In this document: positions 38,713 through 43,880 of the stretch, one piece after another
How positions within the stretch are numbered: position 1 is the stretch's first letter
How the letters are laid out: each line of letters begins with the position of its first letter
NCBI GenBank assembly: GCA_025786725.1
Contig: JAHLTZ010000015.1
Coordinates: forward strand, 434,001-498,000
Direction: 5' to 3'
DNA length: 64,000 bases
Source of the DNA: Syncephalis fuscata
Taxonomy: Eukaryota; Zoopagomycota; Zoopagomycetes; Zoopagales; Piptocephalidaceae
Made by a program: the position numbers and the translations under genes
The notes under the pieces: model-generated
What the model saw: only the letters and a program-made list of their open reading frames with translations
What the model was told of the DNA's origin: nothing
Database searches by the model: none

Positions 38713-40533
38713 TGTGTTGAATTCGGATTGCAAAGTGGAAAGTAAAAGAAATGATTTTTTTCTTTTTTTTCGTACTTTTTTATTATAGTGTGTTATACTT
38801 TACTAAAATTGTCACCAAAAACTTGTTCAATGTATATTATGCATCCAACTTAATATTATCTCTTTCGATTTTTAATGGTATTGATGTGTATTTCTAAATC
38901 AGTAGAATAATATATAGTTAAGCGAATAATTAAAGAAAGTATAGCTATAAATAGTAAAGTATAGTATATTTAAGTGGACCATGTTGAATTCTACAAAGAA
39001 TATGACTAATGACAAAGAAACAGCCTTTATTAATAATTAATAGTTGGTGAGGCATAGGATAGCATAGAACGGAATGAATGAATAAAAGAAGCTATAATTT
39101 ATATGGCTCAATGAGCGACATGAGTCAAAGTTTATAGCAAATAAGGCTAGAATTATACAAACGTAGTTTTAAATAGAGTGTGGTCAGTACAGGATAGAAC
39201 GATATATAATAGAATGAATATGCAAGGGAGGGAAATGAATAAAGAATTAGAGAAATAAAAGTATTGTATGAATAGACTAGTCATTATCAGGATCCATGAG
39301 TTGTTATATGGTAGTAGTGCTTTTATGTCAACATATAACTGATACTGCTAGTATTTTGTTAATGATATCAACAAAGATATACAATACTATCATAGTGGCT
39401 GGGATAGATCGGATTAATATGATAATTGTATCTATTCATAAAGTACGTGCAAAGTAATAGAATAAGCATGTATAAGATAGATTCATCTATAGCAATTCAA
39501 TATCATTATGAAGTAAATCGAGTATGTATAAAAATATCTGTTTATTACGTACTGGATAATTGTAGAATTATATATGGTTGTCTAGGTCCGATGTTGTAAA
39601 TTGTTGATAAAGCCATGTTGTTTTAATTCTGCTGGTAAATAAATAATTAGCTTATTGAGGTATAAAGCATAATAAAACCTATTGAATTCAAAAATGAACA
39701 AACAACTAGTCATGTGCAACTAAAATGGCTATTTGCATTTCATTGTAACAGTTTTCTATGTTCTTACACAATATATCATGAGTTTTATAGTAGCAATACA
39801 AGCCTACAAGTCATTTGTCTACTTTTTATTTGAGCTGATAAATAATATAAAATTGTTTTAATTATTAACATTTGCATTTCAGTAGAATTTATTTACAAAA
39901 GTAAAAGTGGTTGATTAAAGTTACAATGTAGTGTTTTCGTTTTCTTATACTTAATTACAGCATATTGATTAGTGATATTCGACTACTTGCGTTGTTCATT
40001 CATTCCAATGACATTCACTGTTCATTTTCATCCATCTTGCTTCCTTTTCCACTTAATATCCTTTGTCTCTAGCAGTATCATTGACTAGTACGCACACTCA
40101 GTCCATTTAATATACAATTGTTTAACTAGCTAAATTGAATAACATTATAGCCAATAGCATAAAAGTGCCAATTATACAATGTTCAATGATACAGTATCTA
40201 TTTCACAACATTGCATACATTCAAGTCAAATGATATAGTAACGCTGTTATATACAATCTATATCGTTCGTGAATAAGCAGTAATTTAGTAGTGGTTTTGT
40301 GTTAATCAAATGACGACTTTATTAAGTAATAATGACTACATACTAATTGCTATTTGAATAATAATGCTATTACAATTACTTTAGTTTACATTGTTCACTA
40401 ACATAGCGCATTTGTACAAGTTTATTGTCAATATATTTAATCAATTAATGTTAGTCTTTGTAAGCAAATAGAATATAAACACAGCTATAATAGCTTAATC
40501 AAACATAATTAAAATGAAACCATATGTTTATTA
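38713..40533. other. Intergenic, no gene seen
   Basis: 1.8 kb of AT-rich sequence between the RPF2 start and the 3' end of the microexon gene. Six-frame reading shows no family. It may hold the RPF2 promoter and a 3' untranslated region. Confidence 0.5.
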
Positions 40534-42092
40534 CTAAGTCTGCATAGCTGAGCATGTACAGAAAAATAGAAACATGTTGGCAATATAAGGAGTCCATCGA
40601 TTAAGGGTTGAATAAACCGGGGCATTGGATGGAACTTGATATATGAATGGACTGAATGGCGTAGTTGTCAAATGATCTTGATTCTTGCCGAATATATACC
40701 TAAAATATATATAACTTGCAGTCCAATTATACTATCAGTGCCGATACATATATAAAATATTATGCGATTAGCGTATAAGTTAACATTATATAACTCTACT
40801 TACTGGCTATTAATACAAGTCATCAAACACACAAAGTGCACGGTATATATTTAGCGCATAGACAATTAATATATAATAGCACTTACTAGCTGTTAATACA
40901 AGTTATTAAATACAAAATGTGCGGTATATGTTTAGTGCATAGTCAATTAATATACAATACCACCTACCAGCTATTAATACAAGTCATTAAACACATAAAG
41001 TGCATGGTATATATTTAGTGTATAGTCAACCAATATACAATACTACTTACGGCCTATCAATACAAGGGATCAAATACAAAATGTACGGTATATAATTAGC
41101 CTATAGTTAATTAATATAGTACCACTTACGAGCTATCAATACAAAGGATCAAATACAAAAGGCACGGTATATATTTAGTGTATAATCAATTAGTATACAA
41201 TACTACTTACGGCCTATTAATACAAGGGATCAAATACAAAATGTACGGTATATATTTAGTGCATAGTCAATTAATATACAATACTACTTACCACCTATTA
41301 ATACAAGTCATTAAACACATAAAGTGCACGGTATATATTTAGTGTATAGTCAATTAGTATACAATACTACTTACGGCCTATTGATACAATTCATCAAATA
41401 CAAAATGTATGGTATATGTTTAATGTATAGTCAATTAATATACAATACCACTTACGATCTATTAATACAGTCACCAACCATACACGATTAATGATATATG
41501 TTTAGTGCGTAGTTAATTGGTATACAATACCACTTACCAACTATTAATACGAGTTATCAAACACCAAAGTGCACAGTATATATTTAGTGTATAATTAATA
41601 AATGTACAATGTCACTTACGAGCTATTAATACAAGTTATTAAATACAAAATGTGCGATATATATTTAGTGCATAATTAATTAGTTATTCTTATTGCTATT
41701 TACCTCCTATTAGTATAGATAGGCAATATTAGTATCAGCAATATAATTTTGTTTTATATTAAACCTACTTTTAGCCAATGGTGCTATTTTATTTATTTTA
41801 CATTAAAAACAACAATTAATTATTGTGCCAATAACTATGTGCAATCAACACTTACCAACTATTTGCCATGTCCATTATTTGTATAACATACGGTAAGCAC
41901 TGGAACAATGATCCCTAATCACAACTTACCGGCTAATACCATCGTTGGTTGAACATAGTGTTAGTAAACATATCAAATTTATTATGACTACAACATACCA
42001 CGACGAACCAAAGTTGGCTTAGCATCCACCATGGCTGTACTGGCTACAAGGGCCACGAGGACGGTGCAGACGACGGCAATAAAAAGCTTCAT
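40534..42092 (-). CDS. Secreted-type microexon gene (about 15 tiny exons)
   Basis: Exon 1 (42092-41999) has a strong ACCATG start and a signal peptide (MKLFIAVVCTVLVALVASTA, then MVDAKPTLVRR) before donor GTATGT. Candidate tiny exons, each between AG and a donor, follow at 41930 (CCG), 41892-41899 (8 nt), 41856 (TTG), 41769-41783 (15 nt), 41704 (GAG), then eleven 3-nt exons at 41620, 41538, 41456, 41375, 41292, 41211, 41130, 41051, 40968, 40887 and 40804. The last exon (40731-40534) opens with TAT AAT TGG; its frame is supported by synonymous differences against the copy at 7.3-7.5 kb (FIYQVPSNAPVYST). Phase works if the 8-nt exon is used; its flanking introns are only about 30 nt, so that step is uncertain. 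The array then reads ELLIAVALALLP. Function unknown. Confidence 0.55.
40804..41706. repeat. Tandem array of ~81-bp intron/3-nt-exon units
   Basis: Eleven units with spacings of 79-83 bp, plus a diverged twelfth at 41704. On the minus strand each unit is a donor (GTAAGT/GTAGGT), an AT-rich body containing 'TTAATTGACTATGCACTAAATATATACCGTGCAC'-like sequence in degenerate form, and an acceptor 'TATTAATAG', followed by a variable triplet. The triplet is the freest part of the unit while both splice sites stay intact. Confidence 0.9.
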
Positions 42093-42228: not shown

Positions 42229-42237
42229 CTATTTATA
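42229..42237 (-). promoter_or_regulatory. TATA box of the microexon gene
   Basis: On the minus strand this reads TATAAATAG, 137 bases before the exon 1 ATG, with GC-poor flanks. It suggests a regulated, potentially strongly expressed gene. Confidence 0.6.
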
Positions 42238-42516
42238 TTAATATTTATTTTGAAGCACCAGCAATGTATCCTATAGAATATACCATTGAATACAGTGTAA
42301 ACCAATAAAATGTATTGATATGACGATTTAGCAGGCATGGATGAATAACTGTAGTGTGCATTCTATACGTGCAATGGTAGTCTTCAAAGGTATTCACATG
42401 ATGATTTGAAGTATGCGTATAGCAATGTACTAATGACATGCTAATGTGCAACCATGCCCTTGATTCAACCTGTTTGGCTTTTGCTCAGATGACGCGGCGA
42501 ACCTAACCACCTGGTA

Positions 42517-43160
42517 CATCTATGGTAGAAATTCGTGTACTATTCTTTACAATATCGTACATGGTTTGACATGTAATGCAAACCAATCCATTGATTCTAT
42601 AGAAGCATAATGATACGCCTTGTGTTCTTGCTATTGCTTTTACCGAAAAATTAATCCCCAGCTTGACCGTAAGACGCAAACTGAAACAACTGGTTTACAG
42701 AAATAATGATGCTCCGTTGTTGTTTCTTTACTTTAACCTGCTTACCATTTGCACAAAGGACCCGACAATCTCAATCATTCAGTACACCTATGGTAGAAAT
42801 CGTGTACTATTCTTTACAATACGTACATGGTTTGAACATGTAATGCAAACCAATCCATTGATTCTATAGAAGCAATAATGATACGCATTTGTGTTCTTGC
42901 TATTGCTTTTACCGAAAAATTAATCCCCAACTTGACCGTAAGACGCAAACTGAAACAATGGTTTTACAGAAATAATGATGCTCCGTTGTTGTTTCTTTAC
43001 TTTAACCTGCTTACCATTTGCACAAAGGACCCGACAATCTCAATCATTCAGTACATCTATGGTAGAAATCCATGTACTAATATTTACTGTACTGTGCATG
43101 ATTTGACCATACAATACAAACTGAGTCTATTGGTTCTATAGAAGCAGTAGTAACACAACA
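42517..43160. repeat. Tandem 268-bp repeat, about 2.4 copies
   Basis: The block 'tatggtagaaat' recurs at 42521, 42789 and 43058, and the whole 268-269 bp unit between is nearly identical in the first two copies. Each unit contains a short frame ('KLKQxxYRNNDAPLLFLYFNLLTIC') on the plus strand, which changes frame between copies, so coding is doubtful. The array lies upstream of the microexon gene promoter. Confidence 0.85.
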
Positions 43161-43880
43161 ATGTGTTTTGCTGTTGCTTTTACCGAAACATTTTAATCCC
43201 CAATATTTGCATCCTTTCAAACTGCGCATAACTCGTAAGATAGTGCATTGCCTTTGAACAAACCCCGATATAATCTTTTTGTGGAATTAGGTCTGTTTTG
43301 ACACCAAACTGCATTCTCTTCATTTTATAGATGACTACAAGGTTTATTAATAGCGGTAAATAAAAGCTATTTATTATTCTTTCAAACTGCACAACACATA
43401 TACAAAAGCAACATTAATAAATTGAGTTTCTTTACATACCTATAATGTTGTGCATAAGCCAGTTACAATGATTAAATCATGCAATATATTGGTTGGTTCA
43501 TGTGACCATTCTACTTGCCATTGCAGCTTAGCTACAAGAATTACCAATTTATTTTTAGCGTTGTATTATTAATCATTAATACAGGCCTTATCGCTATCAG
43601 TCAATTCCTGTTATTAATTATCGGCTGCTGCGTAATGGTATTCCCGATAATGAAGCATTGGGCTCGAGTATTGATGTTGTTAATTAATTGATTATAAAGT
43701 AATGTAAAGACACTAAAATTTATTTATCAGACATTTTAGTTGAATATATGTCTATTATTGCTAAAATGGATAGTTTAATTGTGTTTGTATTTAATGATTA
43801 ACCATAACGTATCAATGGCTACAAAAAAACTTTTTTAATTAAAATAAAATTAAATTATAATAGCGATAGCATTAAATAAA
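43161..43880. other. Intergenic with a short hydrophobic frame
   Basis: From about 43499 to 43689 the plus strand has an open, very hydrophobic frame (SVVLLIINTGLIAISQFLLL) without an upstream ATG. It may be a membrane-protein fragment. Nothing else recognised. Confidence 0.25.

Follow-up and report, generated by a model that had tools for sequence, protein, structure and literature searches.

The analysed stretch of DNA (the window hereafter) comprises 64,000 nucleotides from a contig of Syncephalis fuscata; Syncephalis is a genus of the Zoopagales that is described as mycoparasitic (PMC10386755). The minus strand carries a gene at positions 42092-40522, in which fourteen 3-nt exons and one 15-nt exon lie between a first exon resembling a signal peptide and a last exon. 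A TATA-box-like sequence, TATAAATAG, is located upstream of the ATG at 42229..42237 (first base 42237). Exon 1 (41999..42092) starts with the ATG at 42092, has the content MKLFIAVVCTVLVALVASTAMVDAKPTLVRR+G, i.e. 94 nt, and ends in phase 1 at a donor GTATGT; its translation resembles, by eye, a signal peptide and ends with RR. Further downstream follow the 3-nt exons CCG (41930..41932) and TTG (41856..41858), the 15-nt exon CACCATTGGCTAAAA (41769..41783), which yields (x)PLAK when read in phase 1, and the 3-nt exon GAG (41704..41706) with donor GTAAAT. The subsequent array (40804..41622) holds eleven 3-nt exons, in order CTC TTG ATC GCC GTG GCC CTC GCC CTG CTA CCA, whose first bases are 41622, 41540, 41458, 41377, 41294, 41213, 41132, 41053, 40970, 40889 and 40806. 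Its introns measure 76-80 nt and its units are ~81 nt apart, while introns of the whole gene span 62-81 nt; Tandem Repeats Finder reports a period of 81 with 10.9 copies at 40798-41682. Each triplet is flanked by AG and GTAAGT, GTAGGT or GTAAAT. The last exon as modelled (40522..40731, 3' end nominal) has an in-frame stop in its first codons, followed by the 3'UTR with an AATAAA at 40532.

The first-pass annotation had placed an array of eleven or more 3-nt exons between a TATA box plus signal-peptide exon and a last exon that is also conserved at a second locus. The eleven exons from CTC to CCA are as described, CCG, TTG and GAG raise the count to fourteen, the TATA-box-like sequence and the signal-peptide-like exon are present at the locus, and the last exon is conserved, the 3' region aligning with that of the intronless paralogue L057. 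Very probably, we are dealing with a spliced coding array; the predicted spliced product of the window copy is MKLFIAVVCTVLVALVASTAMVDAKPTLVRRAVAPLAKRALDRRGPRPATI (51 aa). Just upstream of the gene, at 42514-43203, lies a 269-bp tandem repeat of 2.6 copies.

A search with a profile of the junction retrieved 897 unit matches in 40 loci (the window gene and 39 others), 85 of them in L041. The stored alignment contains 882 units, and omission of 8 that do not span the junction leaves 874 junctions. The exon measures 3 nt in 871 and 2 nt in 3 of these junctions, unlike in recursive splicing via zero-length exons, where the acceptor directly abuts the donor. AG..GT is intact in 851/874 junctions and GTAAGT is present in 729/874. 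Among the 871 junctions with a 3-nt exon, AG..GT is not intact in 23 (7 of them with GC); 8 junctions lack GT at the donor, and 7 of these 8 carry GC, a substitution that is tolerated by real donors. Because the profile was derived from units bearing the motif, independent evidence for the 3-nt spacing has to come from pattern counts. Genome-wide, AATAGNNNGTAAGT (AATAG-N3-GTAAGT) has 1400+1783 = 3183 matches as compared to 28 for the reversed-pattern control, whereas N4 spacing yields 36+18 = 54 (control 50) and N2 spacing 34+25 = 59 (control 58). The first-pass observation of units separated by exactly three bases holds, and on a larger scale than described. When the 3183 strict matches are divided by a sensitivity of 480/874, as measured in one subfamily, the genome would contain ~5,800 such exons, duplicated loci included.

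To determine column information, 696 units were used, with the near-duplicate loci L009, L012, L016, L022, L024, L028, L032, L039, L040, L043 and L046 omitted. The acceptor AG reaches 1.98/1.91 bits, the donor 1.70-2.00 bits and an internal CTAA (profile columns 80-83) 1.14/1.93/1.80/1.94 bits, with the TAA at columns 81-83 being 97-99% conserved; the triplet is the least conserved element (0.05/0.45/0.02 bits). Indels per column amount to 0.0038 within the junction and 0.0102 elsewhere. The array introns thus display two properties of spliceosomal GT-AG introns, GT..AG ends with a donor consensus and a branch-site-like CTAA, and we infer that the latter acts as branch site. Introns of the actin, Ras and Hsp70 genes of the same genome have similar ends (by eye). 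These data bear on a first alternative, namely that the array is a duplicated intron or a satellite, whose triplets remain untranslated and across which exon 1 is spliced to the last exon. The units are indeed tandem and alike, as this explanation requires, but the triplets vary far more than their flanks while the spacing nonetheless stays at 3 nt. With the further evidence below, we regard this alternative as very improbable.

The 28.95 Mb assembly contains at least 140 matches to the DNA of the window gene. Two family proteins used as queries gave at least 150 scored genome matches each (315 and 326 candidates), nearly all of which cover the signal-peptide part; in the Syncephalis fuscata family to which the window gene belongs, exon 1 is present in about 150 or more copies. 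Out of these, 42 array loci were examined (window, L009-L047, L055, L056). The number of detected units per locus ranges from 2 to 85, as expected if every unit duplication brings in a further intron together with a further amino acid, a growth step proposed in the first-pass annotation; a block repeat, CCG AAT CTA CTC AAT, in L026 likewise supports growth by unit duplication. Since intronless, few-exon (L062) and array members coexist, the family ranges from genes with no introns to genes with more than 80 detected units. By eye, public gene models P0004 and P0008 were matched to array loci L010 and L030, respectively; both remove intron 1 and continue as an unspliced reading frame, so that the array goes unused, as it would if it were a mere duplicated intron.

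Several further properties of the array loci were noticed. L009 is almost identical to the window copy, and near-identical or same-order copies, partly inverted, occur on the same contigs (G000 C57:418105-419662 and the window; C1:475-478 kb and C1:531-534 kb; C2:225 kb and C2:245 kb), which may represent segmental duplication or an assembly effect. A dispersed element (ATTTGCGCTGCTT and close variants) resides inside array introns of L010, L012, L014, L019, L026 and L030, and L027 has a similar 446-base gap within its array; ARAGORN found no tRNA in L010, L014, L019, L026, L027 and L030. Exon 1 is broken or altered in L009, L033, L036, L042, L044 and L045, and also in L039, the changes being a frameshift, a stop codon, loss of the start or a different length. 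Despite the altered exon 1, the triplet chains of L033, L036, L042, L044 and L045 are devoid of phase-1 stops.

Frame-blind gene modelling was tried on 39 loci and gave a model for all except L042; L015, L019 and L056 were outside the set. From these models only the tallies of exon lengths and exon-1 phases were used, because they contain errors in places: L011 and L014 were given an 8-nt exon, inserted elements interrupt the chains of L010, L012, L014, L026 and L030, and there is a last acceptor placed too far downstream in several loci and an exon 2 that is too long in L055. In the 38 modelled loci, 751/782 internal exons are 3 nt long, and the last base of exon 1 is a first codon position in 33/38. 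The five exceptions are L009, L036, L044 and L045, all with a broken exon 1, and L039, in which a length difference near the exon-1 end would set the array in phase 0. As exon 1 ends after position 1, each triplet contributes the last two bases of one codon and the first base of the next. The idea of one codon per exon is thereby corrected, since in phase 1 the triplets straddle codons (33/38 models).

Stop codons provide evidence that this frame is under constraint. In 22 loci with a usable exon 1, phase-1 stops occur at 3/508 joins, as compared to a mean of 20.8 when the order of triplets is permuted within loci, and none of 2000 such shuffles gave a number as low; in 28 representative loci there are 3/636 as compared to 23.9 by shuffling. 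Two of the three stops are found near the array ends of L021 and L041, and the third, in L026, arises at a join spanning a unit whose acceptor is broken and is absent from the neighbour-join count. Phase 2 was rejected, as its 54/508 stops match the 54.4 obtained by shuffling. Tested singly, 18/18 loci are open, with a joint chance of 1.05e-7 under shuffling; this count is without L021, L025, L026 and L041, of which L021, L026 and L041 hold one phase-1 stop each, and it joins triplets over gaps and over units with broken sites. For the window copy alone the stop test has no power, its triplets being too few for a frame test. Base composition by codon position also places phase 1 nearest to the intronless paralogues (distance 0.74; others 1.50 and 1.54), although T at the wobble position reaches 61% in arrays versus 40% in intronless genes. 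By eye, the last exon begins with AG|xyTAA, i.e. a stop in phase 1, in 12/16 printed loci; the window copy, unlike these, has no acceptor before xyTAA. The avoidance of stops between neighbouring triplets in the frame of exon 1, and not in phase 2 or at joins that skip exons, again argues against an untranslated intron or satellite.

The same joins speak to the possibility, raised in the first-pass annotation, that random skipping of exons, with the frame preserved, lets one gene give rise to very many protein variants. In the window gene, the phase is preserved by each of the fourteen 3-nt exons and by the 15-nt exon, and a single skip seldom generates a stop (~4%), both of which would permit such a combinatorial output. 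However, stops are found at 2/500 joins (0.4%) between neighbours (i to i+1) versus 20/460 joins that skip one exon (i to i+2), and when more exons are skipped the proportion is 3.3-4.6%. In skip joins, stops are thus about as frequent as after shuffling of the triplets, giving no sign of selection for alternative joins. As stops are avoided at neighbour joins and not at skip joins, only the full in-order product appears to be kept open, and we consider random skipping unlikely. Preservation of phase upon skipping would render splicing errors cheap.

Phase 0, i.e. one codon per exon, was set aside for the array as a whole, given that exon 1 ends in phase 1 in 33/38 models and that the stop in the last exon, by eye, is in phase 1; in addition, the 15-nt exon would hold a TAG in L020, L025, L028, L029 and L031. 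L039 is the exception to this rejection on account of its exon-1 length difference. A related alternative invokes two frames: an alternative 8-nt exon would shift arrays to phase 0, providing leucine-rich hydrophobic tails. Candidate 8-nt exons (TGCTTACC, CGCTTATC, CACTTACC, TGCTTACT) were noticed by eye downstream of the first 3-nt exon in the window gene, L010, L011, L013, L014, L018 and L019. In its favour, stop triplets are absent in phase 0 (0/871), such an exon was chosen by the frame-blind model for L011 and L014, and the high T content at the second triplet base (the 61% versus 40% mentioned above) would fit as well. However, TA* triplets are depleted as a class (2 versus 21.4 expected), TAC and TAT being also nearly absent, and so are TG* triplets (4 versus 10.2), whereas TC* triplets are not (15 versus 14.4). 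Together with the acceptor G, TA* and TG* would create donor-like GTANGT and GTGNGT. Depletion of these triplets confounds the phase-0 stop test; avoidance of cryptic donors explains the zero count, although it is not thereby proven. The TAG in the 15-nt exon of the five loci and the phase-1 stop of the last exon also speak against it, and we regard the two-frame reading as very improbable.

Information on the joined triplets comes from a sample of seven intronless family members with contiguous reading frames. In three of them (L057, L059, L060), exactly 9 nt separate the last whole codon of exon 1 from a motif CCATTGG/CCATCGG, which is absent from the other four. This spacer corresponds to the length obtained by including both 3-nt exons in 10 array loci fitting the exon pattern, a pattern that itself required 3-nt exons. 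Moreover, intronless L059 contains contiguously GATGTTGTG-CCATTGGCTAAGA-GAG and reads GATGTTGTGCCATTGGCTAAGAGAG; its joined triplets ATG, TTG and GAG match the exons ATG, TTG, CACCATTGGCTAAAA and GAG of array locus L019. The presence of joined triplets in intronless paralogues speaks against an array that is spliced out as a whole. At the other end, the coding sequences of L057, L061 and L063 run into a TAA followed by sequence similar to the last-exon start of 12/16 printed array loci. The region upstream of L057 is common to 5/6 array genes compared over ~170-270 nt, and to L018 over 40 nt; the 5' region of the window gene aligns with it over ~215 nt. Because upstream sequence is in common with array genes, L057 is not a promoterless retrocopy. 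Between the mature parts of array and intronless members, no convincing homology was detected in the sampled loci, the two highest z-scores being in phase 2, and colinearity is therefore demonstrated at the two ends only. In a tree of exon 1 (40 rows) the intronless rows are scattered: the 7 rows require 7 changes, as compared to a mean of 6.5 upon shuffling. However, the starred branches force only one change, so that the tree does not establish repeated loss of introns. Few-exon member L062 has exon 1 followed by exons of 9 nt and 33 nt, which are used by public model P0007 (by eye). The public model P0011 of intronless L060 differs near its end from the contiguous frame. By eye, P0016, on a contig of 782257 bases, looks like an intronless member similar to P0006 that has been read in a shifted frame.

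Divergence of the triplets was assessed between related loci, using 19 pairs with 225 aligned units in total (one locus may be in several pairs). Per-site change is 0.089 at the first, 0.044 at the second and 0.084 at the third triplet base, as compared to 0.043 in introns, 0.017 in the acceptor and 0.007 in the donor. In eight close pairs with an intron divergence of 0.006-0.030 (L016/L017, L010/L012, L032/L034, L032/L040, L038/L039, L038/L043, L021/L024, L025/L028; 136 units), 5/408 triplet sites differ, and the window copy and L009 have no triplet differences. Although the overall rates resemble diversifying selection on the triplets, this is not claimed, as the excess stems from the more diverged pairs, in which the pairing of units is unsure.

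The predicted product of L041, read in phase 1 over 63 units (QKLQSFATQLQQEIDSFRPSCSEDIQKLYDQADKLHDELLVKLNKFLNEYIKQYGQLHQQDG), exhibits a strongly periodic amphipathic helix pattern. In phase 1, none of 2000 residue shuffles reaches its helical periodicity, as compared to P = 0.0175 in phase 0 and 0.47 in phase 2, which speaks against untranslated triplets. The L033 product (LEQLRAIAAKLADLTEQFDEFIEKID) has a helical P = 0.002 in phase 1; here, the signal is not specific to phase 1, phase 0 giving 0.0105 and phase 2 0.0225. L055, which was added after profile building, would yield ~CRRGRAACFKKCQSTWRDSASLEYRSCSMDCASYWRIC when read by hand, and other array products are proline-rich or have basic pairs. 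The compared genes diverge after the common RR. Pfam families were absent from the 7 proteins searched, and none of 7 candidates from a protein database search with the L041 product passed; an alignment of nine products retrieved 15 matches at E up to 1, all 15 from Syncephalis fuscata.

Taken together, we consider it highly likely, judging from the DNA, that these loci constitute a large gene family in which the mature secreted part is encoded by 3-nt exons interspersed with ~80-nt introns that are spliced constitutively and in order. Exon 1 would provide a signal peptide with a dibasic RR at its end, and its last base would be the first of a codon. The array would then be spliced by intron definition, and with constitutive in-order splicing each exon would complete one codon and start the next, until the last exon contributes a stop within one or two codons. 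The predicted products may be secreted, cleaved at RR/KR and directed against fungal hosts. Duplication or loss of intron-plus-triplet units would let arrays grow and shrink, thereby shifting protein length one residue at a time, as whole units are gained or lost. Going one step further, and with only slight preference over the contrary, we view the array as a protein-coding satellite, in which unequal crossing over, duplication and loss would build and edit new secreted proteins residue by residue and intron loss would fix finished products as intronless paralogues. If true, the family would represent an extreme of eukaryotic gene structure, with more than 60 consecutive 3-nt exons in one frame (L041) and 3-nt exons by the thousand in one genome, and would provide a test case for spliceosomal handling of exons below the size of the U1 footprint. 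It would also offer an observable route to new proteins, codon by codon, and disclose an effector-like secretome overlooked by gene finders. Array and intronless members of one family provide a natural contrast for studying the co-evolution of introns and coding sequence.

A literature search, limited in its terms and subscription coverage, found no description of consecutive 3-nt exon arrays or of microexons in Syncephalis. Schistosome micro-exon genes encode secreted proteins by many small symmetric exons of 6-36 nt; these exons are larger than those of the Syncephalis arrays and do not form a 3-nt array. Introner elements and stwintrons are cases in which near-identical introns multiply, whereas here the intron multiplies in tandem within one gene, carrying a codon's worth of exon with it. 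Plant microexons of 1-15 nt are often missed by annotation, and conserved GTRAGT donors occur at the 1-nt exon of VPS55; the cases described there are single exons plus one adjacent pair (5 and 12 nt) rather than arrays (PMC8831610). In fungi, Fusarium CYP621A has a single 1-nt exon with RNA reads in support and, similar to the situation described here, combines an ultra-small exon with an intronless relative as length marker; it is one exon in a conserved enzyme and not an array (PMC12940212). Nearest in logic are the bicycle genes of aphids, which are fast-evolving putative parasite effectors with ~17 exons on average, megacycle having more than 100 microexons (PMC9168663). The description given there includes no tandem intron-unit copies or 3-nt array, the organisms belong to a different kingdom and the likeness is one by description. 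Nonetheless, almost all internal exons of bicycle genes begin at codon position 2 (PMC9168663), and the Syncephalis arrays likewise consist of many very small internal exons (751/782 of 3 nt) in this same phase (phase 1 in 33/38 models).
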